This document shows, in pieces, positions 26,737 to 64,000 of a stretch of 64,000 bases of DNA (positions are counted from its first letter, which is position 1; the number at the start of each line of letters is the position of its first letter). Made by a program: the position numbers and the translations under genes. Origin of the DNA: Microbispora amethystogenes (GTDB lineage: Bacteria; Actinomycetota; Actinomycetes; Streptosporangiales; Streptosporangiaceae); NCBI RefSeq assembly GCF_016863015.1, contig NZ_BOOB01000013.1:62001-126000 (forward strand), written 5' to 3'. A model generated the notes under the pieces. The model did not search any database. It saw only the letters and a program-made list of their open reading frames with translations, and had not been told where the DNA came from.

Positions 26737-26754
26737 ACGACAGGAGGACCCACC

Positions 26755-27843: not shown

Positions 27844-27949
27844 GTCGACCCCCCTAGACAGGAATAGAAGAGGCGCGCTATCGTCTTCCGCATAGCCCCC
27901 TAGACAGTTCCTAAGGGCAAAACGGCCGTCGCTGTCTAGGGGGGTCGAC
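27844..27949. promoter_or_regulatory. 18-bp inverted repeat with a third copy, operator region of pra operon
   Basis: GTCGACCCCCCTAGACAG (27844-27861) is repeated exactly on the other strand at 27932-27949, next to the pra ribosome binding site. A third copy (GCCCCCTAGACAG) lies at 27895-27907. All contain the CCCTAGAC half-site found as a palindrome at 25854. Binding by the HTH regulator at 25897, perhaps with looping, is the simplest reading. Confidence 0.7.
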
Positions 27950-27965
27950 AAGGAGGTGGTGAACG

Positions 27966-28379: not shown

Positions 28380-28648
28380 TGGGGCGGCGCACCGTGCGGC
28401 CCTCGGCCGTGATCAGCCTCAACACCGGGGGCGGGGCCTCGGCCAAGACTCTGCCGTACCCGGTCCGTACCCCAGTGCTGGCGCTGGACTTCGGCGCGAC
28501 CTCGGTCCTGCTGACCACCTCTGACAGCGACCAGGTGAGCCCGGCCGATGTCGAGTTCGCGCGGCAACTCGCCCGTGAGGCGGCCTCGTTCGCCCGGTCG
28601 GTCGAGCGGCGATTTCACGGCCTGGCCAACGGTCGCGGGGTGGCCTGA
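28379..28648 (+). CDS. Small AICE protein A, paralogue of next gene
   Basis: 89 aa, coupled to pra by overlap (GTGATG at 28376-28381). It shares with the next protein a layout 'TPVLALDFGATSVLLTT...DVEFARQLAREAASFARSVE'. The C-terminal helix pair is preceded by two beta strands. Function unknown; both are probably part of the transfer or replication module. Confidence 0.65.
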   Translation: MGRRTVRPSAVISLNTGGGASAKTLPYPVRTPVLALDFGATSVLLTTSDSDQVSPADVEFARQLAREAASFARSVERRFHGLANGRGVA

Positions 28649-28977
28649 TGGCACACAGTCCCTACACCCACGTGTCGATGTCGATCGACCCCGGACGCCG
28701 TCCCCGTATCGGCGTCTCGTTCTACACACCGGTCCTGCGGGCGGGCGCTCGGGTGCTGGAGTCCGGGCGGCCGTTCCTGTCGCTGGAGTCCGACGAGGCG
28801 AACGTGACGGTCTCGACCACCGGGGCCGGACCGGTCACCGCCGAGGACGTGGAGGTCGCGCGGCAGTTCTTCACCGCCGCCGCGCGGTACCTGGCCGACT
28901 GCGAGCGCATGCACGCCGACCAGTCGGCCGACTCCGACCAGATCACCCCGTCCGTCGCAGGCGAGACGGCGGCCTGA
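28648..28977 (+). CDS. Small AICE protein B, paralogue of previous gene
   Basis: 109 aa, start overlaps the previous stop (TGATG). It has 'PFLSLESDEANVTVSTT' and 'EDVEVARQFFTAAARYLADC', aligning with protein A. Two adjacent diverged copies suggest an ancient duplication and perhaps a heterodimer. Unknown function. Confidence 0.65.
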   Translation: MAHSPYTHVSMSIDPGRRPRIGVSFYTPVLRAGARVLESGRPFLSLESDEANVTVSTTGAGPVTAEDVEVARQFFTAAARYLADCERMHADQSADSDQITPSVAGETAA

Positions 28978-28986
28978 GATGCAAGC

Positions 28987-29020
28987 GGGGCCGCAGGAAG
29001 CGGCAACTTCCGGCGGCCCC
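28987..29020 (+). terminator. Hairpin between small genes and tra
   Basis: GGGGCCGC (28987-28994) pairs with 29013-29020, and AGGAAG inside pairs with CTTCC. There is no T-run. It may attenuate or separate transcription of tra from the upstream genes. Confidence 0.5.
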
Positions 29021-29064
29021 TCAACTCTCCCTGACTGCGAAATCACGAGAGGACACGAAGTCTA

Positions 29065-30492: not shown

Positions 30493-30644
30493 ACGGCGTG
30501 GCGCACTTCCTCGACGGGCTGCGCTGCTCGGTCTGCGGCGCGTTCAACGCCCTGTGGCTCGACCCCGTCCGCGGCCTGGTCGAGTGCAACGAATGCGGCC
30601 AGACCGCCCTCACCATCCCCGAGCCCGGAAGGGAGGACAGTTGA
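30489..30644 (+). CDS. 51-aa zinc-ribbon protein between tra and rep
   Basis: The 51-residue protein has two CxxC pairs ('LRCSVCGAFN' and 'VECNECGQTA'), a classic zinc ribbon. Its ATG overlaps the tra stop and its stop overlaps the TTG start of rep, so it is surely translated as part of the operon. A role as an accessory factor for Rep or Tra is a guess. Confidence 0.75.
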   Translation: MNGVAHFLDGLRCSVCGAFNALWLDPVRGLVECNECGQTALTIPEPGREDS

Positions 30645-32308: not shown

Positions 32309-32550
32309 CGAAACCGATTTCGCCGACCACGCCACTCCCGCCAGAGGCCCAAGGTCGACTCCTCCGCGTCGAAGAGGTGGCTGAACGGCTGAACACCTCC
32401 GTTCGCTTTCCTCGTCGGCTGATCGCCGAACGCCGTATCTTCTTCGTCCGCGTCGGCCGGGGTGTTCGCATTCCCGAAGCCGCACTCGAAGCGTTCATCG
32501 CGGCCGGACTCGTCGAGCCGATGAAGGCCCCGAAGGGACGGGCGGCCTGA
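32305..32550 (+). CDS. xis: Excisionase (MerR-like HTH, Xis)
   Basis: 81 aa with 'LLRVEEVAERLNTSVRFPRR' and 'RRIFFVRVGRGVRIPEAAL', the small winged HTH of excisionases. It overlaps rep by 4 bp and int by one base. It would bend DNA at the ends to favour excision with Int. Confidence 0.88.
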   Translation: MTKPISPTTPLPPEAQGRLLRVEEVAERLNTSVRFPRRLIAERRIFFVRVGRGVRIPEAALEAFIAAGLVEPMKAPKGRAA

Positions 32551-33710
32551 TGGCGAACAGAGACGGTCACCGGCGTTTCGGCAATATCCGCAAGCGGGAG
32601 TCCGGCCGCTACCAGATTCGCTATCCCGGCCCCGATGGGCGGATGCATAGCGGCCCCACGACCTACGCCACGCGGACCGAAGCGGATCGTGCGCTGACCC
32701 TGATCGAAGCGCAGATGATTTCAGGGGAGTGGACGGACCCCGATCGCGGGAAAGTCCTGCTCGGCGACTACGCCCGTACGTGGATCAAGGAGCGGCCTGG
32801 CCTGCGGCCCAAGACAATCGAGCTGTATACCTGGCTGCTCGACCGGCACATCGTCCCCGGCCTGGGCGGCGTCGCCGTGGGCAAGCTGACGACGCAGATG
32901 ATCCGGTCGTGGCGGGCGAAACTCATCGACAACGGCGTCTCGGTGTCCACCGCGGCCAAGGCGTACCGCCTGCTGCGGGCCGTGCTGATGACGGCCGTTG
33001 AAGAGGACAAGCTACTCAGCCGGAACCCGTGCCGGATCAAGGGCGCGGACAACGAGCAGACGCCGGAGCGGCCCATTCTCACCGTTGCCCAGGTCTTCGA
33101 GCTGGCCGACAAGATGGCCGACCGGCGCTTCCGCGCGTTGATCCTGCTGACCACGTTCGCCAGCCTGCGATGGGGTGAGGTCATCGCGCTACGGCGGTCG
33201 GACATCGACCTCAAGGCGCGGACAGTACGCGTACGGGAACAGCTCATCGAACTGGACGGCGGAGACATGGTGCTCGCACCGCCCAAGTCGCGTGCCAGCA
33301 AGCGCACCGTCAGCATCCCCTCGGCGATCGTCCCCGCGCTGACCGAGCACCTGGCCGAGTTCGTCGACCAGGCCGACGACGCTTTCGTCTTTCTCGGCAA
33401 GCGGAGCGGCTACCTGCGCGGCGGTAACTTCCGGCGGGAGGCCAAGTGGGCGGAAGCGCTCAAGGAGATGGGCGTCAAGGAACTGCACTTCCACGACCTT
33501 CGGCACACCGGCAACACGCTCGCCGCGCAGTCGGGCGCGAGCCTCGCCGACCTCAAGGCGCGGATGGGTCACGACAGCGACCGCGCGGCGCTGATCTACC
33601 AGCACGCCACGCGCGACGCCGACCAGAGGATCGCCGACGCACTGAGCGCCCGTGTCGAAGCCGACCGCAAGGCGGCCAGCGGCAAGAAGGAGAGCAGTGC
33701 TGAGGGCTAA
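32550..33710 (+). CDS. int: Tyrosine integrase of the AICE
   Basis: 386 aa. The N-terminal arm-binding domain ('GRYQIRYPGPDGRMHSGP') is followed by a SAM-like core-binding domain and the catalytic domain. Catalytic residues are visible: Arg in 'FASLRWGEVIAL', His-x-x-Arg in 'HFHDLRHTGNT', His in 'MGHDSDRAAL' and Tyr in 'ALIYQHATRD'. The stop codon TAA is the first three bases of the first arm site (33708). The gene lies 58 bp from the att core in tRNA-Ala. Confidence 0.95.
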   Translation: MANRDGHRRFGNIRKRESGRYQIRYPGPDGRMHSGPTTYATRTEADRALTLIEAQMISGEWTDPDRGKVLLGDYARTWIKERPGLRPKTIELYTWLLDRHIVPGLGGVAVGKLTTQMIRSWRAKLIDNGVSVSTAAKAYRLLRAVLMTAVEEDKLLSRNPCRIKGADNEQTPERPILTVAQVFELADKMADRRFRALILLTTFASLRWGEVIALRRSDIDLKARTVRVREQLIELDGGDMVLAPPKSRASKRTVSIPSAIVPALTEHLAEFVDQADDAFVFLGKRSGYLRGGNFRREAKWAEALKEMGVKELHFHDLRHTGNTLAAQSGASLADLKARMGHDSDRAALIYQHATRDADQRIADALSARVEADRKAASGKKESSAEG

Positions 33711-33728
33711 TGGCCCGTTAATGGCCCG
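33708..33728. repeat. Integrase arm-site pair, attR side
   Basis: Two TAATGGCCCG copies (33708, 33719) 11 bp apart lie 40 bp before the core. They match the pair at 20639/20650. The first overlaps the int stop codon. Confidence 0.8.
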
Positions 33729-33729
33729 G

Positions 33730-33764
33730 ACACCGCTTCCCAAGATCGGGGAGGCGGTGTTTTT
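33730..33764 (+). terminator. Terminator of the AICE operon
   Basis: ACACCGC (33730-33736) pairs with GCGGTGT (33754-33760), with further pairing inside, and TTTTT ends at 33764. It stops int transcription just before the tRNA gene, which reads in the opposite direction. Confidence 0.85.
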
Positions 33765-33768
33765 CGAG

Positions 33769-33811
33769 GTGGAGCCTAGGGGATTCGAACCCCTGACTTC
33801 CTGCTTGCAAA
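33769..33811. repeat. tRNA-Ala core copy 6 (attR, within the intact tRNA gene)
   Basis: The 43-bp core that is repeated at 13578, 15945, 17540, 19350 and 20511. It spans the tRNA from the 3' end to the anticodon loop, so each integration restores the tRNA. Confidence 0.92.
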
Positions 33812-33842
33812 GCAGGCGCTCTGCCAGCTGAGCTAAGGCCCC
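33770..33842 (-). tRNA. tRNA-Ala (anticodon UGC)
   Basis: Read on the minus strand from 33842. The acceptor arms GGGGCCT and AGGCTCC pair (one G-U), the D-arm is AGCTCAGCTGGCAGAGC, the anticodon stem CCTGC/GCAGG holds loop TTTGCAA (TGC), and the T-arm is GGGG-TTCGAAT-CCCC. Length 73 nt without encoded CCA. It is the integration target of the AICE. Confidence 0.97.
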
Positions 33843-48222: not shown

Positions 48223-48594
48223 TCAGGCGAGCAGATGGGCGAGGCCGAGCCCGGCGGCGGCGGCGAGGACGCCGAGGAGCAGGCTGCCCAGCGCGTTGAG
48301 TGCGGCCTGCGCGGCCGAGCCCTCCTCCAGCAGGCGCACGGTCTCGAAGCCGAACGTGCTGAACGTCGTGAGCGCCCCGCAGACACCGGTGCCGAGCAGG
48401 GCGACCGCGGGATCGGGCAGGCCGAGGCCGTCCCGCGCGCCGAGCAGCAGCCCGAGCACGAGCGACCCCACCAGGTTCACCGTCAGCGTCCCCCAGGGGA
48501 AGACGCTGTCGTGCAGGCGCTGCACCAGCCGGTCGGTCAGATAGCGGGCGGGGGCGCCGATCGCGCCGCCGAGGAAGACGAGCAGCAGGGTCAC
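48223..48594 (-). CDS. crcB: Fluoride channel CrcB/Fluc
   Basis: 123 aa with four membrane helices. Fluc motifs: '[16 protein letters not shown]', '[18 protein letters not shown]' (Asn) and '[20 protein letters not shown]' (Phe and Thr of the pore). It exports fluoride. It overlaps the DUF190 gene upstream by 4 bp. Confidence 0.93.
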
Positions 48595-48932
48595 CGCTCC
48601 GTACGCCCCACGTAGCGGTAGACCTCCACGGGATCGACGATCACGAGGCCCTCGGTGACCAGTTCGTCCAGCTCCGTCATGAACGCGGCGATCCGCTCCG
48701 GGGCGTCCACGACGACGACGGCGACGGGCAGGTCCTCGCTGAGCGACAGCAGGCGGCTGGTGTGGATGAGCGAGGAGGCGCCGAAGCCCTCGATGCCGCG
48801 GAACACGCTCGCGCCGGCGAGCCCTCTCTTGTGCGCCCGGTGCACGATCTCGCTGTACAGCGGCCGATGACGATACTGGTCGGTCTCGCCGACGAAGATC
48901 GTCAGGCGTTGCGCCGGGCCGTGCAGCCTCAT
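48591..48932 (-). CDS. DUF190 protein
   Basis: 113 aa from ATG 48932 with AAGGAGA. The PII-like DUF190 pattern is '[20 protein letters not shown]', '[19 protein letters not shown]' and '[18 protein letters not shown]'. DUF190 genes commonly lie with crcB; a regulatory role on the channel is inferred. It is between two crcB genes with overlaps on both sides. Confidence 0.92.
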
Positions 48933-49456
48933 TGCCTCGTCTCCTTGCCGTGCCGTACGGGGAGGCCGGCCACGGCGCGGGCCAGGGCGGCCCCGCACCA
49001 GACCGCGGCCAGACCGGCGACCAGGCTGCCCGCCGCGTACGCGACGGCCGTCGTCCACCCGCCGGCTGACATCCTTCCCACGCTCTCGTTGGTGAAGGTG
49101 GAGAACGTGGTGAACCCGCCGAGGAAACCGACCCCGAGGAACGGCCGCACGTAGCGGCGCGGGGGCCAGACGGACAGCACGAAGACCATCAGCGCCCCCA
49201 GCGCGAGGCAGCCGGTGACGTTGACGAGGAACGTCGCCAAGGGAAACCCGGAGGGCGGCGCGGGCAGGGCCCGGCCGGCCAGGTAGCGGGCCACGCTGCC
49301 GGCCCCGCCGCCGAGCGCGATCATCGCGAGCACGTCCCAGCCACGGCGGTGCGCGGGGGCCGCCAGGCGGAAGACGTCCCGATCGCGCCGGAGGTCGACG
49401 TCGGGGTCGATCGGCAGGCCGGCCTCTTCCCGATCGCCGCGTACGCGCCGGCTCAC
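48929..49456 (-). CDS. crcB: Second CrcB/Fluc with N-terminal extension
   Basis: 175 aa from GTG 49456 (GAGGAGG upstream). An unusual 45-55 residue charged N-terminal extension precedes four membrane helices with '[16 protein letters not shown]', '[16 protein letters not shown]' and '[20 protein letters not shown]'. Two Fluc proteins in one operon probably form a dual-subunit channel. No fluoride riboswitch motif was recognised upstream. Confidence 0.88.
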
Positions 49457-49926: not shown

Positions 49927-51096
49927 TTGCTGAGCGCCGCCGGAGACGCCGGCCCACCCGGCCCGGGCCGATCGTACGACCCTCCCCTCACCGTCGACCT
50001 GCGCGGAACGCCGGGATCGGTGTCGTGGCGGACAGCGGACAGCGAACTGCGCATCGAGCCGGGCACCGGGCCGGACGCGGGGGTCCTGCCCTGCGTCGTG
50101 CTGGCCGACCGCGCGGGCTGCGCCGAGTTCGCCGTCCTGCAGGACACCCTGCACCGCCTCGGCGTGCCGAGCGTGCGCGTCGACGCCGAGACCATCGCCT
50201 CGCTGCGGCTGTCCACCACGGTCACCGGTGACACGGGCGGGATGAGCGGAGTGCTCGACCTCGACGGCCGCCGCATCATGCCGACCGTCGTGTGGGCGCG
50301 CCACTTCTCGCCCCGGGCCATGCCCGCGACGGCGGACGCCGTGGAGACCCTGCTGCGGGCCGAGTCATGGCACGCGCTGGTCCGCCAGCTCTGCTCGCTG
50401 GCCCCGGCGAGCCTGCCGGGCAACCGGCCCGGCCGCCTGGAACAGCTCGCCGGTGCGGCGAGGGCCGGGGTCCGCGTCCCCCGTACGGTCGTCACCACCA
50501 GCCCGGCGGAGGCGGCGGCCCGCCTGCCGGGGTCCAGGGTGGTCGTCAAGGTCGTCGAGGAGCACTTCGTCGAGACCGAGCCCGGGCTCCTGACCGGGGT
50601 CCTCCCCGAGATCGCGGCCCGCGAGGAGGTGCTGCGCCGGCCCGCCCTCGACTACCCCGTCATCGTGCAGGAGCACGTCGAGCACGACGCCGAGCTGCGG
50701 GTCTACCACGTCGCCGGCGGCCTGCACGCGTACGCCGTCGGCAAGCGCTCCCCCGACTCGCCGTGGCGCGAGGAGGGCGAAGTGACGGTCACCCCGGTCG
50801 CCGTGCCGCCCGCGGCCGCCGACGCCGTACGGCGGCTCGCGGCCCTGTGGGGGATGACGTACGGCGCCTTCGACCTGCTGCTGAGGAAGGACGAGGTGGT
50901 GTTCCTCGAAGTGAACCCGGACGGCGACTGGCGCTGGTTCGAGGCGAAGGCCGGGGGACACGCGGTCTCCACGGCCGTCGCGCTCGCGGCACGAACGCTC
51001 CATCTGGCGGCCCTGGGCAACGCCGTGCCCCCGGCTCCGCTCGACCTCGTCGACTTCCTCCTCCTGGGCGCCCGGAGAGCCGGTTCCGTCCGGTGA
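49927..51096 (+). CDS. ATP-grasp ligase, RimK/graspetide-maturase-like
   Basis: About 389 aa; a TTG at 49927 is the first start in the frame and lacks a clear ribosome binding site, so the true N-terminus is unsure. The N-terminal part has 'MPTVVWARHFSPRAMPA', then 'SLPGNRPGRLEQLAGAARAG' and 'VRVPRTVVTTSPAEAA', as in TgmB/MvdD-type peptide ligases. ATP-grasp residues follow: 'RVVVKVVEEHF' (Lys), 'PVIVQEHVEHDAELRVYHV' and the metal site 'VVFLEVNPDGDWRWFEAK'. Such enzymes cross-link Asp/Glu side chains to Ser/Thr/Lys in peptides. It is first in a gene set with a small 70-aa protein. Confidence 0.8.
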   Translation: MLSAAGDAGPPGPGRSYDPPLTVDLRGTPGSVSWRTADSELRIEPGTGPDAGVLPCVVLADRAGCAEFAVLQDTLHRLGVPSVRVDAETIASLRLSTTVTGDTGGMSGVLDLDGRRIMPTVVWARHFSPRAMPATADAVETLLRAESWHALVRQLCSLAPASLPGNRPGRLEQLAGAARAGVRVPRTVVTTSPAEAAARLPGSRVVVKVVEEHFVETEPGLLTGVLPEIAAREEVLRRPALDYPVIVQEHVEHDAELRVYHVAGGLHAYAVGKRSPDSPWREEGEVTVTPVAVPPAAADAVRRLAALWGMTYGAFDLLLRKDEVVFLEVNPDGDWRWFEAKAGGHAVSTAVALAARTLHLAALGNAVPPAPLDLVDFLLLGARRAGSVR

Positions 51097-51134
51097 CCGG
51101 GACCGCCGCGGAGACCCGGACCAAGGACTGCACC

Positions 51135-52958
51135 ATGGGTGACGCGATCTCACCGCGACTGCACTGCTCGATTCTCGGTCCGCTGGAGGTCCGCGTGGAG
51201 GACCACAGGGCGGTCATCGGCGCTCCGAAACAACGGCTGCTCCTGGCGATACTGCTGTGCCACGCGAACGCGGTCATCCCGTCCGAGCAGCTGATCGACT
51301 CGCTGTGGGGCGAGACGCCGCCGCGTACGGCCCGCAAGAACCTGCAGGTCTACGTGTCCGCGCTACGCAAGATCGTGGGCGACCGGATCAGCTTCCAGGG
51401 GTGGGGCTACCGGATGCGCGCCGACCGCGAGGAGCTCGACCTGCTGCGGTTCCTGGAACTGAGCAGGTCGGGCCGCTCCGCCGTCCGGAGCGGCGACCTC
51501 CCCGTCGCCGCGTCGCAACTGGGCGACGCCGTCAGCATGTGGCACGAACGACCGCTTGTGGAGTTCCGCCATGTCCCGCTCGTGGCCGCCGAGGTGGGCC
51601 GCTTCACCGAGCTCTTCCTGTCGGTCTACGAGGACTGGGTGGAGCTGGAGATCGAACTGGGCCGCCACGTCGAGACTCTGGGCTCCCTCGACGTCGTCGC
51701 CGCGCGGTTCCCCGCCCGCGAGCGCATCGCCGCGGCGAGGATGACGGCGCTGTCGCGGTGCGGGCGGACCGCCGAGGCGCTGTCGCATTTCGAGGGCCTG
51801 CGGCGGCACCTCGCCGCCGAGATGGGCATCGATCCCAGCCCGCTGATCAGGCAGCTCTACCAGACCATCCTCCGTTGTGACGGGCCCCCCACGCGGAACC
51901 CGGGCCCGGCCGCCGCCCGCCCCCGGTCCGTACGGGCCCTGGCGAACCGGCTCCCCCGCGACGTCGACGACTTCGCCGGCCGGGAGGCGGAGGTGCGGCG
52001 CGTTCTCGAGGATCCCGCCCCCGTCACGGTGATCACAGGCGGGCTGGGCGCCGGCAAGACCGCCCTCGCCGTACACGTCGCGCACCTGCTCGCCTCCCGC
52101 TATCCGGACGGCGCGGTGGTGATCCCGCTGCGGCGCCACGGCGTCCCCCAGCCGGCCGCCGGCGTCCAGCGGGAGATCCTGGAGAGCGTGGGGCTGGATG
52201 TCGCCGGAGTGCGCGAGGACGACGCGCTGGCGTCCGTCTGGCGGTCGTGGCTCGCCGACCGGAAGGTCCTGCTGGTCCTCGACGACGCGCCCGACGAGGA
52301 GAGCGTCCGCACGCTGCTTCCCGGCACCACGTCGAGCAGGGTCCTGGTGACGAGCCGGAGCAGGCTCAGCGGGCTGGACTCGGTGGCCCGGATCGGGCTC
52401 GGAGACCTGTCCACGAGCGAGGGTGTCGAGTTCCTGAGCCGGATGATCGGCCGTGACCGGGTGGCCGGCGACCTGCCCGCCGTCCTGCGGATCTTCCGGA
52501 GATACGGCCTGTCGCCGCTGGTCCTGCGCCTGCTCGGGGCCCGGCTCGCCGGGCTGTGGCACCTGCCGCTCGGTCCGCTGGCCGAGCGGCTGGACCGGAC
52601 CGAGAACGTGCTGGACGAGTTCGCCGCGGGAGACGTGTCGCTGCGCCGCCGGTTCGAGGAGTCCTACGCCCACCCGTCGTGGCCGCACCGCGCCGCGTTC
52701 CTCGCCCTGGGCGCGCTCGGCGGCCCGGTCTTCGGGCACGAAGAGCTCGTCGAGGCCCTGGACGGCACCGGCGAGCCGGGCGAGCGGGTCGTCGAGTCGC
52801 TCCTGGAGGCGGGCGTCCTGTCGATCTCGCAGACCCCGGCCGACGCGGAGGTGGCCGCCCACTCCCTGTCGTACGCGATGTCACCCCTCGCCCACCGGTT
52901 CGCGGCCGAACTGCACGCCGGCCCGCACGCCGCACCGCACGGAAACCGGGAGCGCTGA
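51135..52958 (+). CDS. SARP/AfsR-like regulator with NB-ARC ATPase domain
   Basis: 607 aa from ATG 51135 (AAGGA upstream); GTG 51093 overlapping the ATP-grasp stop is an alternative. A winged-HTH (residues 10-95: 'LHCSILGPLEVRVEDHRAVI', 'WGETPPRTARKNLQVYVSAL') is followed by the BTAD domain to about 255, then an NB-ARC domain with Walker A 'VITGGLGAGKTALAV' and Walker B 'KVLLVLDDAPDE'. SARPs activate biosynthetic genes by binding direct repeats, and such repeats lie right after this gene. Confidence 0.88.
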   Translation: MGDAISPRLHCSILGPLEVRVEDHRAVIGAPKQRLLLAILLCHANAVIPSEQLIDSLWGETPPRTARKNLQVYVSALRKIVGDRISFQGWGYRMRADREELDLLRFLELSRSGRSAVRSGDLPVAASQLGDAVSMWHERPLVEFRHVPLVAAEVGRFTELFLSVYEDWVELEIELGRHVETLGSLDVVAARFPARERIAAARMTALSRCGRTAEALSHFEGLRRHLAAEMGIDPSPLIRQLYQTILRCDGPPTRNPGPAAARPRSVRALANRLPRDVDDFAGREAEVRRVLEDPAPVTVITGGLGAGKTALAVHVAHLLASRYPDGAVVIPLRRHGVPQPAAGVQREILESVGLDVAGVREDDALASVWRSWLADRKVLLVLDDAPDEESVRTLLPGTTSSRVLVTSRSRLSGLDSVARIGLGDLSTSEGVEFLSRMIGRDRVAGDLPAVLRIFRRYGLSPLVLRLLGARLAGLWHLPLGPLAERLDRTENVLDEFAAGDVSLRRRFEESYAHPSWPHRAAFLALGALGGPVFGHEELVEALDGTGEPGERVVESLLEAGVLSISQTPADAEVAAHSLSYAMSPLAHRFAAELHAGPHAAPHGNRER

Positions 52959-52973
52959 GCCCGCGTACGCGGT

Positions 52974-53005
52974 CAGTATGGCGGCGGCATGGCGTCGCCA
53001 TACTG
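52974..53005. promoter_or_regulatory. Inverted and direct repeats upstream of the 70-aa gene
   Basis: CAGTATGGCG (52974-52983) is exactly complementary to 52996-53005. Within it TATGGCG (52977) and CATGGCG (52988) form direct repeats 11 bp apart, the spacing typical of SARP binding sites. It lies 78 bp before the TTG start of the small protein gene. Confidence 0.55.
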
Positions 53006-53082
53006 GCGCTGAACCACGCGTCCCTACCGTTGGCGGCGTACCACAGTGGCCGCGAGGCCAGGCACGACCAGGAGGTGGGCCG

Positions 53083-53295
53083 TTGAACAGCCACGACGTT
53101 CAGACCGGGCCGGCGCCGTTCGACCCGCTGACGGCCCTGCGCGAGGCGGGCCACCCCGTGGACATGCTCAACGAGCGGCAGCGGCAGGTGTTCGCCGAGC
53201 TGAGCAGGCCGGAGGTCGAGCTGCTCAACTCGATCAAGACCCGCCTGGACGAGGCGGCCGGCGAGGTCGAGGGCCAGGAGCTCAAATTAGTGTGA
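53083..53295 (+). CDS. 70-aa small protein resembling the 'aroma-sacti cluster' family
   Basis: A TTG start at 53083 follows GGAGGT at ideal spacing. The protein has an N-terminal 'GPAPFDPLTALREAGHPVDM', a middle 'LNERQRQVFAELSRPEVELL' and a charged tail rich in Lys, Glu and Asp ending 'GQELKLV'. I recall a family of small proteins named for an 'aroma-sacti cluster domain' with the FDPLxALREAGxPVD...QRxVxxxLxxxEV pattern; I could not check this. It is a candidate substrate of the ATP-grasp ligase or protease nearby. Its stop overlaps the cyclase start. Confidence 0.7.
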   Translation: MNSHDVQTGPAPFDPLTALREAGHPVDMLNERQRQVFAELSRPEVELLNSIKTRLDEAAGEVEGQELKLV

Positions 53296-56200
53296 ACGCC
53301 GGGGCAGCCCGCCCTGCGCGCCGGAACGTCGTGGTCGTCTTCATCGACCTGGTGGGCTCGACGGAGCTGGCCGAACGGCTCGACCCGGAGCTCCTCCGGG
53401 ACGTCCTCGACCGGTACTACCAGGCGTGCACCTCCGGGATCAGCGAGCACGGCGGCGTCGTGGAGAAGTACATCGGGGACGCGATCATGGCGGTCTTCGG
53501 CATCCCCGCCAGCCGTGAGGACGACGCGCTCCGGGCGGTCCGCGCCGCCCACGCGGCGTTGGAGGGGGTGCGGGAGCTGAGCGACGGCCTCGCTCCCACG
53601 CACGGCATCCGGCTCGACGTGCACTGCGGCGTCAGCGCCGGGCAGGCGGTGGTCATCGCCACTCCCGGAGCCGACCTGCGCGTCATCGGCGACACCGTCA
53701 ACACGGCCGCCCGCCTGCAGTCCGCCGCGGGCGTCGGCGAGATCCTCGTCGGGGACGAGGTCGCGCGTCTGGTCCGCGCCCAGGCGCGGCTGGAGCCCGT
53801 GCCTCCGCTCACACTGAAGGGCAAGAGCAACCCCGTGCGGGCCTGGCGGGTGACCTCGCTGGAGCCGGACGCCGGGGACGCCGACGCCCAGGTCCCGCTC
53901 ATCGGCCGCGCCGCGGAGACCGCGCGGCTCCGGACGGCGTACCGCGAGGCGGTGCGGGACCACCGGTGCCGGGTGGTGACCGTGCTCGGCGTGCCGGGCA
54001 TCGGCAAGTCCCGGCTCGTGCGCGACTTCGTCCACGAACTGCCCACCGGGGTCACCGTGCTCGCCGGGAGGTGCCGCTCGTACGGCGCCGGGATCACCTA
54101 CCGGCCCATCGCGGAGATGGTCGAGTCCCTCGGTGACGACTGGCCGGACACGCTGGAGGAGGCGAGCGGCGCCGCCCTGCGCGGCCTGGTGACCGGGCAC
54201 GCCGCACGCGCTCCGCGTACGGGAGAGGACGCGGGAGTCGAGGAGATCGCGCGGGCGGTGTGCGCGCTGTTCGAGGCGCTGGCCCGGCGCGAGCCGCTGG
54301 TGGTGGTCTGGGAGGACCTGCACTGGGCCGAGCCGACCCTACTCGACCTGATCGACGACCTCACGACGTGGCTGGTCGACGTGCCGGTCCTGGTCGTACG
54401 GGTGGCCCGTCCCGAGTTGCTGGAGGCGCGGCCCTCCTGGGGGATCGACGTCGGCCGCGCCGTCGCGTTCGAGCTCGGGGCGCTGGACGCGGCGCGGATG
54501 GAGCGGCTGGTCGCCGAACTCGCCGCGCTCCGGTCGCCGGACGACGAGGTGGTCGCCCACGCCGTGGTCGCGAGCCCGGCCCTGTGCCGGCGGGTCGCGG
54601 AGAGCTCCGACGGCAACCCGCTGTTCGCCGAACTGCTGCTGGAGACGCTGGCCGAGGAGGGGGAGGACGCCCCGCTTCCGCGCACCATCCAGGCGCTGCT
54701 CGGCGCGCGGCTCGACCTGCTCGACGACGGTGAGCGCGACGTGCTCGAACGGGCCGCGGCGATCGGTCACGTCTTCACCCTCGACCAGCTCGGCGTCCTC
54801 TGCGCGGCCCAGCCGGAGGCCCGGTTCGACGTCGACGAGACTGTCGGGCTCCTGATCCGCAAACGCCTGGTCCGGCGCGGGGAGGCGGCGGGGTCGTTCC
54901 ATTTCACCCAGACGCTGACCCGCGACACGGTCTACGCCATGACCCGCAAGGACCTGCGGGCCACCTGGCATCTGGCCCTCGCCGACCGGATCTCCGAGCA
55001 GATCTCCGGCCGGCTCTCCGGGCCCGCGGAGTCCTCCGTCTGGTCCTCGTCCGGGGAGGAGTCGTCGCACGGCGACCTGACCCACCACCTGGAGACCGCC
55101 TGCCTGCTGAAACGCGAGGTGCGGCCGGACGACCCGCTGCTGCCGGCGCTGACCGAGCGGGCCGCCCGCGCACTCGTCGGCGAGGGCACCCGGGCCCTGC
55201 ACCGCAAGGACCTGCCCGCGGCCATCGCCCTGCTGGAGCGTGGGCGCGACCTGCTGCCGGCCGGGCATCCCGACCACCGGCCGCTCGCCGTACGCATCTG
55301 CGACGCCGGGCTGGCCCGCGGCGAGTCCGACCGGCCGTACGCCGCGCTGGAGGTGGCCGAGCGGATGCTGCCGGGCGACCCGCGCACCCGGCTCACCTGC
55401 GCCGTCCAGCGCGAGACGCTGGCGCTGCGCTTCGGCACCCGGCCGGCCTCGGCCGGGCCGTTCCGGGACCTGCTGGCGGCCGACCCGGGCGACGACCTCG
55501 GCTGGTGCCGGTTCCACCACCTGGAGGCGCTGCTGCGCATCGGCGAGGGCCGCTTCGGGGCGGCCGAGGACGCGCTGCGCGACGCCCTGGCCCGGGCCCG
55601 CTCCCTCGGCGACAGGTACGAGGAGAACCGACTGCTCAGCGGGTTGTGCGAGCTGGCGCAGTGGTCCCCGACGCCGCTGGCGGAGGGGTTGTCCCTGTGC
55701 GCGGGCCTGTCGGCCAGGTTCGGCGCCGACCGGGCGATGCTCCTGCCCGTCCTGGTCACCGAGGCGCGGCTGCTCGCGCTGGCCGGTGACGTCGCCGAGG
55801 CCTGGGCCGTCCTCCACGCCGCCGACCGGCACGCCCGGGACCTCCATCTGGACCTTGCGGCGGCCGCGGTGCTCCAGGTGCGCGGGCTGGTGGAGTCGCT
55901 CGTCGACCGGCACGCCGCGGCCGAGGCGCTGTTCCGCCAGGCGGCGGCGGACCTCCACCGGGTGGGGCAGTCCGAGCCGGCCCGGACGCTGGAGCTGTAC
56001 GCCGCGCGCGAGCTGATCCGGCGGGGACGTCACGCCGAGGCCGCGGGAGAGCTCGCCCGGCTGCGCGCGACGGGCGCACGGTTGCAGGCCCGCGGTGAGC
56101 TGACCCTACTCACGCTGAGCGCCCTGGTCGCGTCCCTCGACGGCGACCACGGTGCGGCGGGCGCGCTCGCCGCCCGCGCGGAGGAGCTGCTCGCCCGGAC

Positions 56201-56381
56201 CGACGACCCCTGCCTGTGCGGCGACGTGCTGGCCGACCTGGCCCGCGTCCACCACGCGGCCGGGCGCACCGGCCCGGCGGCCGAGGCCGCGGCCCGCGCG
56301 CTGCGTGGATACGCCGCCAAGGGAGCGGAGCTGCCCGCCCGGCGGGTACGCCGGTGGATCGAGGAGGAGAGGCTACCGTGA
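53292..56381 (+). CDS. Class III nucleotide cyclase-AAA ATPase-TPR protein
   Basis: 1029 aa from GTG 53292, overlapping the previous stop (GTGA). Residues about 15-190 are a class III cyclase: metal Asp in 'VVFIDLVGSTELAERL', Lys and second Asp in 'VVEKYIGDAIMAVFG', Asp/Asn/Arg in 'VIGDTVNTAARLQSA'. All needed residues are present. A P-loop ATPase follows ('VLGVPGIGKSRLVRDFV', 'LVVVWEDLHWAEPTLLDLID'), then a long helical TPR-like part. No LuxR HTH is seen at the end. It is probably a regulated cAMP-forming signalling protein. Confidence 0.9.
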   Translation: MNAGAARPARRNVVVVFIDLVGSTELAERLDPELLRDVLDRYYQACTSGISEHGGVVEKYIGDAIMAVFGIPASREDDALRAVRAAHAALEGVRELSDGLAPTHGIRLDVHCGVSAGQAVVIATPGADLRVIGDTVNTAARLQSAAGVGEILVGDEVARLVRAQARLEPVPPLTLKGKSNPVRAWRVTSLEPDAGDADAQVPLIGRAAETARLRTAYREAVRDHRCRVVTVLGVPGIGKSRLVRDFVHELPTGVTVLAGRCRSYGAGITYRPIAEMVESLGDDWPDTLEEASGAALRGLVTGHAARAPRTGEDAGVEEIARAVCALFEALARREPLVVVWEDLHWAEPTLLDLIDDLTTWLVDVPVLVVRVARPELLEARPSWGIDVGRAVAFELGALDAARMERLVAELAALRSPDDEVVAHAVVASPALCRRVAESSDGNPLFAELLLETLAEEGEDAPLPRTIQALLGARLDLLDDGERDVLERAAAIGHVFTLDQLGVLCAAQPEARFDVDETVGLLIRKRLVRRGEAAGSFHFTQTLTRDTVYAMTRKDLRATWHLALADRISEQISGRLSGPAESSVWSSSGEESSHGDLTHHLETACLLKREVRPDDPLLPALTERAARALVGEGTRALHRKDLPAAIALLERGRDLLPAGHPDHRPLAVRICDAGLARGESDRPYAALEVAERMLPGDPRTRLTCAVQRETLALRFGTRPASAGPFRDLLAADPGDDLGWCRFHHLEALLRIGEGRFGAAEDALRDALARARSLGDRYEENRLLSGLCELAQWSPTPLAEGLSLCAGLSARFGADRAMLLPVLVTEARLLALAGDVAEAWAVLHAADRHARDLHLDLAAAAVLQVRGLVESLVDRHAAAEALFRQAAADLHRVGQSEPARTLELYAARELIRRGRHAEAAGELARLRATGARLQARGELTLLTLSALVASLDGDHGAAGALAARAEELLARTDDPCLCGDVLADLARVHHAAGRTGPAAEAAARALRGYAAKGAELPARRVRRWIEEERLP

Positions 56382-57265
56382 CACAGCCCCCCTGGCGCCG
56401 GGAGCGGCGTGAGCAGTTCCCCGGCGTGCCGGCCTGGAGCCTCGCGACCTCACGGCTGGCGCCGGAGGAGTTCGGCGTGAGCCGCCTGGAGGAGGTCACC
56501 AGGGAATGGGCGTGGGGCGACGACGGCACGGGCCCCGCCGACGGGGCGGGTGTGCGCGTCTGCGTGCTCGACACCGGGGTGGACGCCTCCCATCCGCTGG
56601 TCGGCGGCCTGGAGCGGTCGCTGGTGGTCGCCGAGGACGGCGGGGACCTGACCGTCGTCGACTGCGACCCGGCCGACCCGGTGGGGCACGGGACCGCGTG
56701 CGCCGGACTGATCCGCTCGATCGCCCCGGCCGTCTCGCTGACCTCGGTGCGGGTGCTGACCGACGGGCGCTCCGGCAGCGGCGCCGCCCTCCTGGCCGGT
56801 CTGCGCTGGGCCGTCGAGGAGGGGTTCGACCTCGTCAACCTCAGCCTGTCCACGACCAGGAGCCAGTTCCTGCCCGAGCTGCACGAGCTGGCCGACCGCG
56901 CGTACTTCCGGCGCTGCCTGCTCGTCGCCGCGGCGCACAACATGCCGGTGCTCAGCTTTCCCTGGACGTTCTCCTCGGTCATCTCCGTGGCCAGCCACGA
57001 CGAACCCGACCCGATGACCTACTACTACAACCCCGCGCCGCCGGCCGAGTTCTACGCCCGGGGCGTGCGGGTCCGGGTGGCCTGGCGCGGCGGCAGGCAG
57101 ATCCGCAGCACCGGGAACAGCTTCGCCGCGCCGCACATCACCGGGATGTGCGCGCTCGCCCTGAGCAGGCACCGGTGGATGACCCCCTTCCAGCTCAAGT
57201 CGGTGCTCTACCTGGCCGCCAGCAACGTCGTCGTATCCAAGGGAGACGCACATGTCCGTGCATGA
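56378..57265 (+). CDS. Cytoplasmic subtilisin-like (S8) serine protease
   Basis: 295 aa from GTG 56378 (GAGGAGGAGAGG upstream), overlapping the cyclase stop. The catalytic triad is complete: Asp in 'VCVLDTGVDASHPLV', His in 'VGHGTACAGLI', Ser in 'STGNSFAAPHITGM'; the oxyanion Asn may be in 'VAAAHNMPVL'. There is no signal peptide or propeptide, so it acts inside the cell, perhaps trimming the 70-aa protein. Cytosolic S8 proteases occur in several peptide-maturation clusters. Confidence 0.9.
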   Translation: MTQPPWRRERREQFPGVPAWSLATSRLAPEEFGVSRLEEVTREWAWGDDGTGPADGAGVRVCVLDTGVDASHPLVGGLERSLVVAEDGGDLTVVDCDPADPVGHGTACAGLIRSIAPAVSLTSVRVLTDGRSGSGAALLAGLRWAVEEGFDLVNLSLSTTRSQFLPELHELADRAYFRRCLLVAAAHNMPVLSFPWTFSSVISVASHDEPDPMTYYYNPAPPAEFYARGVRVRVAWRGGRQIRSTGNSFAAPHITGMCALALSRHRWMTPFQLKSVLYLAASNVVVSKGDAHVRA

Positions 57266-57878
57266 ACGGCGCTCCGACAGCGAGATCACCGAGCGCAGGC
57301 TGCTGCAGTCGACCGTCGAGGTCGCCCGGCACGTGTTCGCCTCCGCCGCGGCGTCGGTCTTCCTGGTGGACCAGGAGACCGGCGAACTGGTCTTCGAGGC
57401 CGTGTCGGGCGAGGGGGAGAAGCACCTCATCGGCACGCGCTTCCCGCCCGGCACCGGCATCGCGGGCTGGGTCGCGGCGAGCGGCCAGCCGATGATCGCC
57501 GACGAGGTGACCGCCGTGCCGCAGTTCGCCCACGACGCCGCCGAGTCCACGGGGTACGTCCCGCACAGCATCATGGCGGCGCCGGTCATCCGGGAGGAGA
57601 GCTGCATCGGCGTGCTGGAGGTGCTCGACAGGTCCTCCGACCTGCGGGGGGAGCTCGCCGACGTGGACCTCCTCGGGCTGCTCGCCGCCCAGGCGGCGTA
57701 CGGCCTGGAGCTGCTGCTGCGGCTGCGGCGCTCCGAAGCGGCGGTCCCGGCCGCGGCCGGCGGGGACGACGTCCACCTCCTGCTGCAGCGGATCTCCGAC
57801 CGGGTGCCCCGGGGCGCCGGGCCCGCCGACCCCACCGCCCTGAAGCTCCTCGCCGTCGCCGAGGAACTGCTCCACTAA
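57252..57878 (+). CDS. GAF-domain protein
   Basis: 208 aa, overlapping the protease gene by 14 bp. A GAF domain spans about residues 10-160 ('AASVFLVDQETGELVFEAV', 'PGTGIAGWVAASGQPMIADE', 'SIMAAPVIREESCIGVLEVL'). The C-terminal 45 residues are helical. GAF domains bind cyclic nucleotides or other small ligands, so this protein may sense the product of the cyclase in the same operon. No output domain is visible. Confidence 0.88.
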   Translation: MSVHERRSDSEITERRLLQSTVEVARHVFASAAASVFLVDQETGELVFEAVSGEGEKHLIGTRFPPGTGIAGWVAASGQPMIADEVTAVPQFAHDAAESTGYVPHSIMAAPVIREESCIGVLEVLDRSSDLRGELADVDLLGLLAAQAAYGLELLLRLRRSEAAVPAAAGGDDVHLLLQRISDRVPRGAGPADPTALKLLAVAEELLH

Positions 57879-60548: not shown

Positions 60549-62429
60549 TCAGGCTGGCGGTGCGAACCGGGCGATCGGGTTGACCAGGTCGCCGGCCGTC
60601 TGGAGGGCGGCCGACGGGTCGGCCAGGTCCACCATCTGCCGGTTGTCGCGCAGTTGCAGGCGGTTGAGGCACGAGAGCGCGAACGTCTCCGCGAACAGGT
60701 CGTAACGGCGGAAGCGCTCGGCGAGGTGGGGCGCCGACCGCCGGTAGTCCGCCGCGCATTCGGCGACCGTCCGCCAGAACGCCTCCTCGCCGAGCACGCC
60801 GCCCGTGGCCAGGATCGCGTTGAGGAAGCGCAGGAAGCAGTCGAACACGTCGGTGAAGATCGACAGAAGGCGCATCTCCTCGGGCACATCGGCGCGGATC
60901 CGCCGCACGCCGGGTGGCAGGTCCGTGTCCGGGTCCATCACCACGATCTCCTCGGCGATGTCCTTGAAGATCACCCGCTCCACCGCGCCGCCGTCGAGCA
61001 CCAGGATCACGTTCTCGCCGTGCGGCATGAACGCCAGGCCGTACGCGTAGAAGGCGTGCAGCAGCGGGGTGAGATAGGCGTCGAGGTAGCGCCGCAGCCA
61101 CACCTCGGGCGGCAGGCCCGACCGCTCGATCAGCGCCGCCGCGAACGACCGGCCCGCCTCGTCGGTGTGCAGGAGGGAGGCCATGGTGGCGAGGCGCCTG
61201 CCCGGTTCGAGGCCCGCGACCGGGCTCTCCCGCCACAGCGCCGCGAGCATCTTCCGGTATGGCGAGTGAGGGCGGGTGGCCGACTCGTACAGGCGGTCGC
61301 GGTAGCCGGCGGCGGCCCGCTCGCGGATGATCGTCAGGCGCGTCACGCGGAAGACGTCGTCGTCCCGCAGCAGTCCGGCGAGCCAGTCGTTGATCGCCGG
61401 GGTGGCCTCCATGTACGCCGCGGACAGGCCGCGCATGAAGCCCATGTTGAGCACCGACAGCGCGGTCTTCACGTAGTGCTTCGACGGCGCGCCGGCGTTG
61501 AAGAACGTGCGCACCGACTGCTGGGGGAGGTAGTCGTCGTCGCCGGGGCCCAGGCAGACCAGGCGCCGCGTGGCGACCGCCGCGGCGAAGGTGACCGACA
61601 GTTTGTTCCACCACTGCCAGGGATGCACCGGAAGCAGCACGTAGTCGGCCATGTCCAGGCCGAGGCCGGCCAGCGTGCCCGCGAAGCGGGCGAGGGTCTC
61701 CTCGCCGAGTTCGTCACGTGTCAGCCGGTCGTAGTCGATGTCGCCGGAGCAGGAGAACACGCAGTGGTCGCGGTGGGCGGCCAGCCAGATCAGGCGTACG
61801 GGGGCGGCGGCCTCGGGGGCATACCGGTGGTGGTCGTCGACGCCGTAACCGATCCGGCCGCTGTTGGCCACGAAGCACGGGTGTCCCTCGGTCATCGCGG
61901 CCTCGATCTCCTGGAAGCCGGCCTTCGCCAGTTCGTCCGCGCCGGCCGTGCGCCTGGTCAGCTTGTACGCGAGGCTCGCCAGGGTGGAGGAGATCTCCTC
62001 CAGGTAGACGGGGAGGATCTCGTCGCTCAGCCCGAGGGAGCCGCGCGTCTCCACGACCAGATCCAGTGCGTCGAGGGGCAGGGACTCGGGCGGCTCGGTC
62101 TCGCCCGTCGTGCGGCGCCGGGTGATCTCGCCGATGTGCCAGTGGTCGAGCGACAGCACCGTGGCGGTGAAGCGGTACTCCACCGCGCCGTCGTCGGACC
62201 GCACGGCGTACCGGCCGTCGCCGAGCGGGCGCGGGACGAGCAGCCGCTCGTGGGCGAACTCGGCGAGCGCCTTGCGCACCAGCCGCCGATTGGCCTTCTC
62301 CCAGGTCGCCGGGCTGAGATGGGCGACCGCCGCGACGGGATCGACGGCAGGGTCGACGGCGAGCTCCCCTGCGAGGTTTCCGGTGGGGGTTCCGGCCCGA
62401 TCGGCGGCACGGTTTCCAGGGCCGGTCAC
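60549..62429 (-). CDS. desD: Desferrioxamine synthetase DesD (IucA/IucC NIS synthetase)
   Basis: 626 aa from GTG 62429, overlapping the desC stop by 4 bp. The IucA/IucC core is clear: 'EIEAAMTEGHPCFVANSGRI', 'LLPVHPWQWWNKLSVTFA', 'SVRTFFNAGAPSKHYVKTAL' and 'YGLAFMPHGENVILVLDGG'. DesD uses ATP to join hydroxamate units into desferrioxamine. Upstream on the same strand are desC and desB; desA should lie beyond the right edge. Confidence 0.94.
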   Translation of the reverse strand: MTGPGNRAADRAGTPTGNLAGELAVDPAVDPVAAVAHLSPATWEKANRRLVRKALAEFAHERLLVPRPLGDGRYAVRSDDGAVEYRFTATVLSLDHWHIGEITRRRTTGETEPPESLPLDALDLVVETRGSLGLSDEILPVYLEEISSTLASLAYKLTRRTAGADELAKAGFQEIEAAMTEGHPCFVANSGRIGYGVDDHHRYAPEAAAPVRLIWLAAHRDHCVFSCSGDIDYDRLTRDELGEETLARFAGTLAGLGLDMADYVLLPVHPWQWWNKLSVTFAAAVATRRLVCLGPGDDDYLPQQSVRTFFNAGAPSKHYVKTALSVLNMGFMRGLSAAYMEATPAINDWLAGLLRDDDVFRVTRLTIIRERAAAGYRDRLYESATRPHSPYRKMLAALWRESPVAGLEPGRRLATMASLLHTDEAGRSFAAALIERSGLPPEVWLRRYLDAYLTPLLHAFYAYGLAFMPHGENVILVLDGGAVERVIFKDIAEEIVVMDPDTDLPPGVRRIRADVPEEMRLLSIFTDVFDCFLRFLNAILATGGVLGEEAFWRTVAECAADYRRSAPHLAERFRRYDLFAETFALSCLNRLQLRDNRQMVDLADPSAALQTAGDLVNPIARFAPPA

Positions 62430-63028
62430 GGGTGCTCCCCTCGGACGCCGGCCGCGACGGCTGCGGCGCTCGCGGTGGCGAGGTGGAACCGCTCGCGGGT
62501 GCACACGCTCAGCAGGGCCTCCTTCTCCGGTTTGGCGATCACGCCGACGACCTCGAAACCGACGGCCGCGTTCAGCGCGTGGACGGCGGTGTTGCGCACG
62601 TCGGGCTCGACGACCACCCGCCGCACCGCCGGGTCGGCGAACAGCGTCTCCATCACTGTCGTGATCACGGCCCGGGAGAAGCCGTGCACCGGGCTCCCGG
62701 TGGGCGCGCAGAGGAAGTGCATGCCCACGTCGCCGTCCCGCGCGTCGTACAGGCCCGCGAGCTCGACGCGGGCGGGGTCGTACCGCTCGGCCAGGAAGGC
62801 CGGACGCCCGTCGACCAGCCCGAGATAGGCGTCGCGGTGCGGGTGGGCCACGATCCGGCGGTACTCCTCGGCGACCCCGGCGACGTCGGCGTCCCCCATC
62901 ATCCAGAACACCGCCTTGGGGTGGGTCACCCAGGCGTGCACGATCTCCGCGTCGGCGTCGGGGTCGAGCCGGCGCACGGCCAGTTTGCCGACCCCGTCGT
63001 GGACGCGGCGGAAGACGATCCCGCTCAC
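62426..63028 (-). CDS. desC: N-acyltransferase DesC (GNAT)
   Basis: 200 aa from GTG 63028, with 4-bp overlaps at both ends. The siderophore GNAT pattern is '[20 protein letters not shown]', '[20 protein letters not shown]' and '[20 protein letters not shown]'. It acylates N-hydroxycadaverine with succinyl- or acetyl-CoA. Confidence 0.93.
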
Positions 63029-64000
63029 GCGACCACCCCTTCGGGGGCGCCGAACTCCTGGAAGGCGATCGCCTTCTCGATGGGGTAGTGCTCGCGGCCG
63101 AGGATCTGGGCGATGATCCACGAGTTGCGGTACGGGCCCATGCCCAGGTCGGGCGAGGTGACGCTGTGGGCGTGGGTCGCGCCGTTCTGCACGAAGATCC
63201 CCCGGCCGGTGACGTCGACGCTGTAGTTCCTGGCCACGTCGAACCGGCCGCGCCGGTCCCACCGGATGCGGTCCCGTACGGGATCGAGGAAGGCGGGCGG
63301 CTCGTAGCGGTAGCCGGTCGCCAGCACGAGCCCCTGGGTCACGAGCGTGAAGTCGCGCTCCTGCTCCAGGTGGCGCAGGCCGAGCGTGTACTCGCCCCGG
63401 GCCGCGTCGTGGGCCGCCTCGCGCAGTTCGGTGCAGGTCAGCAGCCGCGACGGGACCGGGCCGCCGGCGGTCTTGGCGTACAGCAGGTCGTAGATCTCGT
63501 TGATCAGCGCCGCGTCGATGCCCTTGTGCAGGCACTTCTGCTCGGCTTCGAGGCGGTATCGGGTGTCCTCCGGCAGCGCGTGGAAGTAGTCCACGTAGTC
63601 CGGGGAGGTCATCTCCAGAGTCAGCTTGGTGTATTCCAGCGGGAAGAACCGGGGTGACCGGGTCACCCAGTTCAGCCGGTAGCCGTGGGTGTCGATGCCG
63701 GCCAGCAGGTCGCGGTAGATCTCGGCGGCGCTCTGCCCGCTGCCGACGACCGTGATGCTCTCCTTGGTCAGCAGGTCGTCCTTGCGGGCGAGGTAGTCGC
63801 TGTTGTGGACGACGCCGCCGCCGAGGCCGCGGCACGGCTCGGGCACGTACGGCGGGGTGCCGGTGCCGAGCACGAGGTGCGGGGCGCGGTGCTCGGTCCG
63901 CTCGCCCGCGTCCGTCAGCGCGTGGACGACGTAACACCCGTCCGCCTCGTCGTACGTCACGGAGGTGACCCGGTGGCCGAAGCGGACGCTCCGCAGCCGC
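63025..64000 (-). CDS. desB: Cadaverine/lysine N-monooxygenase DesB, N-terminus outside window
   Basis: The frame stays open to the right edge, so the N-terminal FAD-binding part is missing; about 324 residues are visible. NADPH-binding '[20 protein letters not shown]', '[20 protein letters not shown]' and the end motif '[18 protein letters not shown]' identify the lysine/ornithine N-monooxygenase family. With desC and desD it makes the desferrioxamine pathway. Confidence 0.93.

Follow-up and report, generated by a model that had tools for sequence, protein, structure and literature searches.

What do an ATP-grasp peptide ligase, a transcriptional regulator, a 70-aa protein, a nucleotide cyclase, a subtilisin and a GAF-domain protein have in common that keeps them together in one locus? 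The question is raised by six consecutive genes of Microbispora amethystogenes, located at positions 49927 to 57878 of the plus strand of the window, i.e. the whole stretch of 64,000 nucleotides analyzed here (contig NZ_BOOB01000013.1, positions 62,001 to 126,000; assembly GCF_016863015.1). All coordinates given are those of the window. The original prediction, made from the sequence alone, regarded the locus as an undescribed cluster for the maturation of a ribosomally synthesized and post-translationally modified peptide (RiPP) combined with signalling. Based on our comparative analysis we consider it on balance probable that the six genes are a regulatory and processing module for RiPP pathways of actinomycetes and not a RiPP pathway complete in itself. 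Comparison of the loci revealed the gene sets and their co-occurrence, the enrichment of a short motif, an association between the tail of the small protein and the ligase, and a partition of the genomic contexts.

The six genes and their conservation

All six open reading frames (ORFs) were intact and in the order described before, and the domain assignments of ligase, regulator, cyclase-ATPase, subtilisin and GAF protein held in profile searches with Pfam and NCBIfam. The first gene (49927-51096, TTG start) encodes a graspetide-type ATP-grasp peptide ligase of 389 aa (TIGR04187, 9.7e-30; MvdC/MvdD models). It is followed by a SARP/BTAD/NB-ARC transcriptional regulator (51093-52958; Pfam BTAD 2.5e-34, Trans_reg_C 1.1e-9, NB-ARC 3.1e-5) and by the small protein of 70 aa, here named ARO70 (53083-53295). 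The fourth gene (53292-56381) encodes a predicted adenylate cyclase of 1029 aa, composed of a class III nucleotide cyclase domain, an AAA_16 ATPase and a C-terminal region resembling tetratricopeptide repeats (TPR) (Pfam Guanylate_cyc 1.4e-17, AAA_16 2.9e-23). The locus ends with a subtilisin of the S8 family lacking signal peptide and I9 prodomain, a predicted cytosolic processing protease (56378-57265; Peptidase_S8 6.4e-25), and its obligate neighbour, the GAF-domain protein (57252-57878; Pfam GAF 1.1e-14).

The ends of ARO70 and cyclase as well as of cyclase and S8 overlap by 4 nt each, those of S8 and GAF by 14 nt. Ligase and regulator overlap by 4 nt only if the regulator starts at the GTG at 51093; its conserved start, from which the orthologues align, is the ATG at 51135. 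The N-terminal segment following the TTG start of the ligase was kept in its orthologues. A hidden precursor upstream of the ligase was considered as well and was rejected, the sole small ORF conserved beyond the genus being the N-terminus of the ligase itself. The six genes are real, intact and under purifying selection, with dN/dS values of approximately 0.06-0.48 across all of them within the genus.

In a family-wide search of 297 genomes, aroma-sacti domains, the domain type of ARO70, were detected in 49; loci of 20 kb were read with our own gene caller and clustered. ARO, cyclase, S8 and GAF genes formed a conserved unit in approximately 40 loci of many genera, with ATP-grasp and SARP genes nearby. 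Since the order is kept in these loci and in other actinomycete families too, the grouping is more than chance. Additionally, a scan of named genomes with the S8 protein yielded 437 relatives and 80 loci. The closest named strain was Microbispora triticiradicis, with an S8 protein 97% identical. In two loci of this species a 380-aa ORF, probably an insertion element, is inserted exactly between ARO and cyclase (L084, L092; genome G200).

In Streptomyces, Kitasatospora, Actinoplanes, Lentzea, Actinoallomurus and others the locus usually had the form cyclase-S8-GAF-ATP-grasp, neighboured by genes for radical S-adenosylmethionine (SAM) enzymes, YcaO/TfuA, a flavoprotein, B12-radical SAM enzymes, transporters of the major facilitator superfamily (MFS) and other RiPP enzymes. 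In some loci the ARO gene was found beside SARP or LuxR genes and not beside a cyclase. No transporter is present at the block in the window, as noted before, but in sister loci the gene of an MFS exporter lies between those of SARP and ARO, which explains its absence here.

The small protein ARO70

ARO70 matched the aroma-sacti model NF045560 of NCBIfam over residues 14-65 (80 bits, 1.1e-22; curated cut-off 30), where the domain is defined as the N-terminal leader-like part of StsA-type sactipeptide precursors. In the AlphaFold2 (AF2) model, residues 14-59 fold into a three-helix domain, predicted with confidence, and the tail GEVEGQELKLV is disordered. For the fold of the ARO domain no match was found in the PDB with Foldseek at E <= 0.001. 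Two elements can be distinguished in the tail. The codons at 53263-53277 encode E61-V62-E63-G64-Q65, a form of the motif [DE]-V-x-[AG]-[HQ] shared by precursors of the module loci and a putative recognition motif of the S8 protease. The codons at 53278-53292 encode the conserved C-terminus E66-L67-K68-L69-V70, a putative target of the ATP-grasp ligase judging from its conservation and from the parallel between Lys and ligase described below.

ARO70 has the leader-like domain of the StsA/StsB/StsC system (NF045559, NF045574, NF045560), with which the module co-occurs and which it often adjoins. It differs from StsA in that it reached only 30.2 bits on NF045559 (cut-off 75) and ends in QELKLV without any Cys and thus without a CxC core. 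The window contains neither StsB nor a RiPP recognition element (RRE); the StsB maturase of this genome is located on another contig. The same partition was seen among the relatives of ARO70. Of 65 distinct AROs with a short tail, 62 had a cyclase, SARP or LuxR gene as neighbour and none had StsB or rSAM17, whereas core-bearing AROs adjoined StsB or rSAM17 in 46 of 54. One short ARO (L142) adjoined a B12-type radical SAM gene. Because the short forms lie beside regulators, never beside StsB or rSAM17, and share a conserved tail with one Lys, ARO70 is probably not the product precursor of the pathway.

The tail was kept at the protein level with varying codons, also where no cyclase follows and no genes overlap. 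A mere overlap with the Shine-Dalgarno sequence and start codon of the cyclase is therefore ruled out as the cause of its conservation. A regulatory TTA (bldA-type) codon was rejected too: TTA, which accounts for 0.2% of the Leu codons here, occurs at 53287-53289 and in the sister strain G119 and is not generally conserved.

The ATP-grasp ligase and the Lys tail

Among proteins of solved structure the ligase was closest to the microviridin-type ligases AMdnB (2.3e-15) and CdnC (2.1e-12), and its catalytic residues are conserved. ATP-grasp hits of at least 340 bits were located at the module in 39 of 51 module genomes. The tails could be read in 36 of these 39, and all 36 contained a Lys. Of the 12 module genomes without ATP-grasp, ten had tails without Lys (GGLLF, GAALF, GLFL) and in two no ARO was found. 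G112 carries one module of each type, and Saccharothrix G307 combines the Lys-less tail DINLVRIG with the absence of an ATP-grasp gene from its genome. Furthermore, short ARO, cyclase and ATP-grasp were lost together in the loci L061/L136, which kept S8, GAF, MFS and maturases and nested with the complete locus L078 at full support.

Since the ATP-grasp gene is present wherever the tail has a Lys and absent where it has none, ARO70 appears to be the best candidate substrate of the ligase. The evidence is suggestive and not statistical, because the main split is a single event: a test for independent pairs of Lys tail and ATP-grasp found one such pair on the tree and hence no statistical weight, and G307 branched without resolution at the base of the Lys clade. 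Formation of isopeptides between Lys and acidic residues is known from graspetides such as microviridin and corallotide (PMC13097080). In 83 of 94 Lys tails a Glu or Asp precedes the Lys by two residues; a repeated graspetide core was not present in them. The module thus shares a homologous ligase with the graspetides but differs from them by a tail with a single Lys on a leader-like domain, without a multi-residue core, and by its tie to a cyclase.

The small protein had been proposed as the precursor of a self-contained pathway, in which the ligase would cyclize ARO70, S8 would cut it, a housekeeping exporter would release the product and the cyclase would act as a local regulator. Ligase, small protein and protease are indeed RiPP-type parts that belong together. 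Had ATP-grasp homologues never occurred with the small protein, this would have refuted the original prediction; instead, dozens of loci with several different gene orders contained both genes. The presence of the Lys tail follows that of the ligase, and no further modifying enzyme adjoins the block in Microbispora. However, the tail barely varies over many genera, unlike the core of a product. In the same loci the short-tail AROs stand beside regulators and the core-bearing AROs beside maturases, and loci of the GGLLF type keep ARO, cyclase, S8 and GAF without any ligase. As ARO70 has a leader-like domain without variable core, neighbours of regulatory type and product genes elsewhere, in cis or in trans, we did not retain this part of the original prediction and regard such a pathway as quite unlikely.

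Two of the GGLLF modules (L052:6400-9009 and L053) adjoin class III lanthipeptide synthetase genes, in L052 with RamC_N, kinase and LanC-like domains, and short tandem precursors.

A comparable gene content has been reported (PMC8939145, Biology Direct 2022) for the ATP-grasps of branch 6: in complex RiPP loci they are accompanied by adenylate cyclases, YcaO, TfuA and radical SAM enzymes of the SPASM type. For most of them no precursor was identified in that study, and a function other than graspetide formation was suggested. Substrate, protease motif and S8-GAF pair are not named there, and the likeness to our module is one of gene content.

The S8-GAF pair and its putative motif

The GAF gene adjoined the S8 gene in essentially all loci, including those without cyclase. 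The catalytic triad of S8 is present in the window and was nearly always found in 37 homologues. The nearest family in NCBIfam was QhpE (NF049966; 4.3e-27, 94.9 bits, below the cut-off of 165). QhpE is a cytosolic subtilisin cutting the leader off a radical-SAM-modified polypeptide in the quinohemoprotein amine dehydrogenase pathway (PMC7876137). The S8 protein is likewise a predicted cytosolic subtilisin; neither a GAF partner nor the motif D/E-V-x-A/G-H is described for QhpE in that study.

The motif [DE]-V-x-[AG]-[HQ] was common to the precursors of module loci whatever their core. It occurred as PEVEAH in StsA, as EVVAHS and DVVAHS (precursors c56/c23), DVVAHE (c71) and DVMAHS (c65), as EVEGQ in the NNNCLC peptides, and as EVEGQ and EVEAH in the short AROs. 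In small ORFs of the module loci of the family it was enriched 31-fold. Thermoleophilia and other deep-branching Actinomycetota, represented by metagenome-assembled genomes (MAGs), carry S8, GAF and MFS genes without adjacent cyclase or ARO. Here, all 14 S8-GAF loci of the Thermoleophilia type contained a small ORF with one to five motifs of the form D/E-V/I/F-E-A/G-H (L152 and L169 by six-frame reading). Small ORFs near S8 in Thermoleophilia had 30 motifs in 3053 aa compared to 4 in 64161 aa of other proteins (158-fold), and shuffling gave a mean of 0.15 against the 30 observed. The motif was picked after the alignments had been seen and was slightly widened, which makes the precise fold figure optimistic; the enrichment itself is far beyond what such a choice could create. 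No NCBIfam model matched the motif peptides without ARO domain, and a literature search for the motif returned an unrelated plant paper only.

As the pair occurs without cyclase beside an exporter and motif peptides, and the same motif is found in precursors of module loci, S8-GAF is probably a processing protease for RiPP precursors.

Some peptides with this motif deserve separate mention. In L044 (8018-9680) eight tandem peptides of 39-46 aa, with DVVAHS or DVIAHS followed by varying WCG-type cores, form a precursor array beside the module. The Thermoleophilia-type MAGs contain acidic multi-repeat peptides with D/E-V-E-A/G-H (L170:11495-11863, L166:11536-11775, L160:13201-13672 and 11 more), accompanied by S8, GAF and MFS with no recognized modifying enzyme adjoining, possibly a minimal peptide system. 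Several of these loci also have a protein of 84 aa shortly upstream of S8 (L170:8876-9130) with a weak likeness to nitrile-hydratase-type (NHLP) leaders (29.4 bits, below the cut-off).

The tail of ARO70 might also be a docking or inhibitory segment. ARO70 would then be a stable, uncleaved subunit binding the cyclase or, like a propeptide in trans, the active site of S8, and the ligase would modify another target. The strict coupling of ARO and cyclase with overlapping translation, the absence of an I9-type prodomain from S8 and the hydrophobic, exposed tail agree with this. But ARO70 keeps the motif of cleavable-looking precursors and of the multi-repeat peptides of Thermoleophilia, ARO genes stand beside SARP or LuxR genes instead of a cyclase in some loci, and the association of tail and ligase would be left unexplained. 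We therefore judge this explanation to be unlikely, though still worth considering.

The cyclase and the GAF protein

All catalytic residues of the cyclase are kept in the window as originally stated, i.e. the metal-binding Asp pair, the purine-specifying Lys/Asp and the Asn/Arg. The motifs FID, EKYIGD and GDTVNTAARL fit a class III adenylate cyclase with the adenine-type Lys/Asp. The residues were nearly invariant in 41 homologues, with the Asp of GDTVN replaced by E or Q in several distant ones. Like the kinase/cyclase fusion of thiazole/oxazole-modified microcin (TOMM) systems (TIGR03903), the protein is associated with RiPPs and combines a class III cyclase with an ATPase and a long region at the C-terminus. 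It scored only 148.1 bits on this model (cut-off 705.75), and no kinase domain was found in the Pfam search.

A Pycsar-like unit for defence against phages or other threats, centred on the cyclase, was considered, as the cyclase domain matched PycC models of PADLOC (best 1.7e-18). What these models matched is the domain common to class III cyclases in general, an effector gene of the Pycsar type is missing beside the cyclase, and the neighbours across genera are RiPP enzymes. With no support past the general domain match this candidate was rejected as extremely improbable.

The GAF protein had been suggested to sense the product of the cyclase. In favour of this, its closest solved relatives by sequence bind cAMP or cGMP (Lcd1-cAMP 6.5e-24, CyaB 1.5e-23, PDE2A, PDE10A), and the folds agree, the AF2 model (pLDDT 88.8) being nearest to GAFs that bind cyclic nucleotides. 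GAFs with other ligands scored close behind. Against it, the protein is the partner of the protease even without cyclase, and NKFDE, the signature of cyclic-nucleotide-binding GAFs, is altered: almost all homologues have DR in place of NK, some have DP or DA, and E is replaced by L. Gating of S8 by cAMP through the GAF protein is possible.

These components could also be arranged in a circuit of peptide and second messenger. The ligase would cross-link the Lys tail of ARO70, S8-GAF would excise a peptide of 5-7 residues, and this peptide or its release would control the cyclase via the TPR-like region. The cAMP formed would act back on S8 by way of GAF, so that RiPP maturation would be timed by an intracellular peptide that reports leader cleavage. 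In the RRNPP signalling systems of Firmicutes short peptides act together with TPR proteins. The likeness lies in a TPR protein and a short C-terminal peptide of hydrophobic character, the candidate receptor here being the cyclase-ATPase. We offer this circuit as a speculation with a rather low probability.

A sactipeptide cluster as probable partner in trans

The genome of M. amethystogenes has a second aroma-sacti locus on another contig (G000:C55), with an StsA-like precursor (141.9 bits on NF045559) and an StsB radical SAM gene above the curated cut-off; the neighbour type of this precursor reached 909 bits on the StsB model NF045574. A PqqD/StsC-type RRE, an FAD enzyme, TfuA, a P450 and a methyltransferase belong to this type of locus as well, as read partly from relatives. 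Within the genus (15 genomes), StsB was above the cut-off in seven genomes and the module S8 was present in eight, including all seven with StsB. The eighth, G178, carries a different radical SAM cluster in cis, located between its SARP and ARO genes; neither StsB nor module was found in the remaining seven genomes. In the family, the module S8 was found in 29 of 30 genomes with StsB versus 22 of 267 without, uncorrected for genome relatedness. Sts cluster and module lie side by side in most other genera, and are 3.4 Mb apart in the single contig of G119.

An alternative would be that the Microbispora module is a remnant, which lost an operon in cis as found in strain G178 (L077) and has a different or fading role without any link to Sts. 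Between the SARP and ARO genes of G178 there are indeed genes for a P450, a glycosyltransferase-like protein, a prolyl oligopeptidase, a radical SAM enzyme and a precursor of 41 aa, and L076 and L081 keep only the MFS gene there. However, in the seven strains that lack this operon, purifying selection acts on all six genes and the active sites are intact. Exactly these seven have the Sts cluster, which is absent from G178. We regard a remnant as improbable.

Proposed function of the module

We propose that S8 and GAF form a cytosolic protease that would cut RiPP precursors at or just after the D/E-V-x-A/G-H/Q motif, similar to QhpE. ARO70 may be a paralogue of the StsA leader that lost the product core and kept the S8 motif and the tail with one Lys. 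The ATP-grasp enzyme would most likely join the tail Lys to a nearby Glu or Asp side chain (a graspetide-type lactam, -18 Da), and S8-GAF would then release the tail. ARO70, cyclase and ligase would act as a control unit that, together with the SARP, sets expression or timing, with cAMP as its likely output. In Microbispora the product precursor would most likely be the StsA-like peptide of the unlinked StsA/StsB/StsC cluster, on which the module would act in trans.

Several points weigh against this model. We infer the enzyme activities, the cleavage, the lactam, the cAMP output and the action in trans from sequence. The motif could, instead of being cut, bind the GAF protein, the transporter or another protein. 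StsC is described to bind StsA, at a WxxP motif overlapping the motif region (PMC12710340), and part of the conservation in StsA may be for the RRE. The ligase scored 103.8 bits on TIGR04187, below the cut-off of 350, and ARO70 offers one Lys and no Thr/Ser-rich graspetide core. The association of Lys tail and ATP-grasp comes down to one main split of the S8 tree, to which no more than two other events can be added. Away from the module there are four weaker ATP-grasp relatives (230-268 bits), two of them in genomes without it, and a few cyclases have no detectable ARO (e.g. L174). Finally, the co-occurrence with Sts within Microbispora could come from shared ancestry.

The cluster had been called undescribed, which applies in part. 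Both the aroma-sacti domain and the Sts sactipeptides have been described (NCBIfam; PMC12710340), and ATP-grasps together with adenylate cyclases appear in PMC8939145. A description of the module as a whole, of its S8-GAF pair, of the motif or of a stand-alone ARO ending in a Lys tail was not found in the open-access literature that was searched. If the model is true, a leader-processing protease with a recognizable motif would be common to many RiPP loci of actinomycetes in which precursors and proteases are difficult to predict. The motif would be a handle for genome mining, including the minimal Thermoleophilia loci without known modifying enzyme. In addition, a group of ATP-grasps for which precursors have mostly not been found would gain a testable substrate, and RiPP biosynthesis would be connected to nucleotide second messengers.

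Surroundings of the locus

Just upstream of the ligase, a DUF190 gene flanked by two CrcB/FluC genes (48223-49456, minus strand) is conserved in the genus. Downstream, an IucA/IucC siderophore synthetase gene and its neighbours (60549-63960, minus strand) follow the module in most Microbispora strains. The region 24122-33842 is an integrative and conjugative element of the actinomycete type, with FtsK/SpoIIIE (29065-30492), a pSAM2-type RepSA (30641-32308) and an integrase (32550-33710) adjoining tRNA-Ala (33768-33842). Beside it, a 974-aa protein with many TPR repeats is encoded on the minus strand (20953-23877) in a stretch of low G+C content (58% versus approximately 70%).

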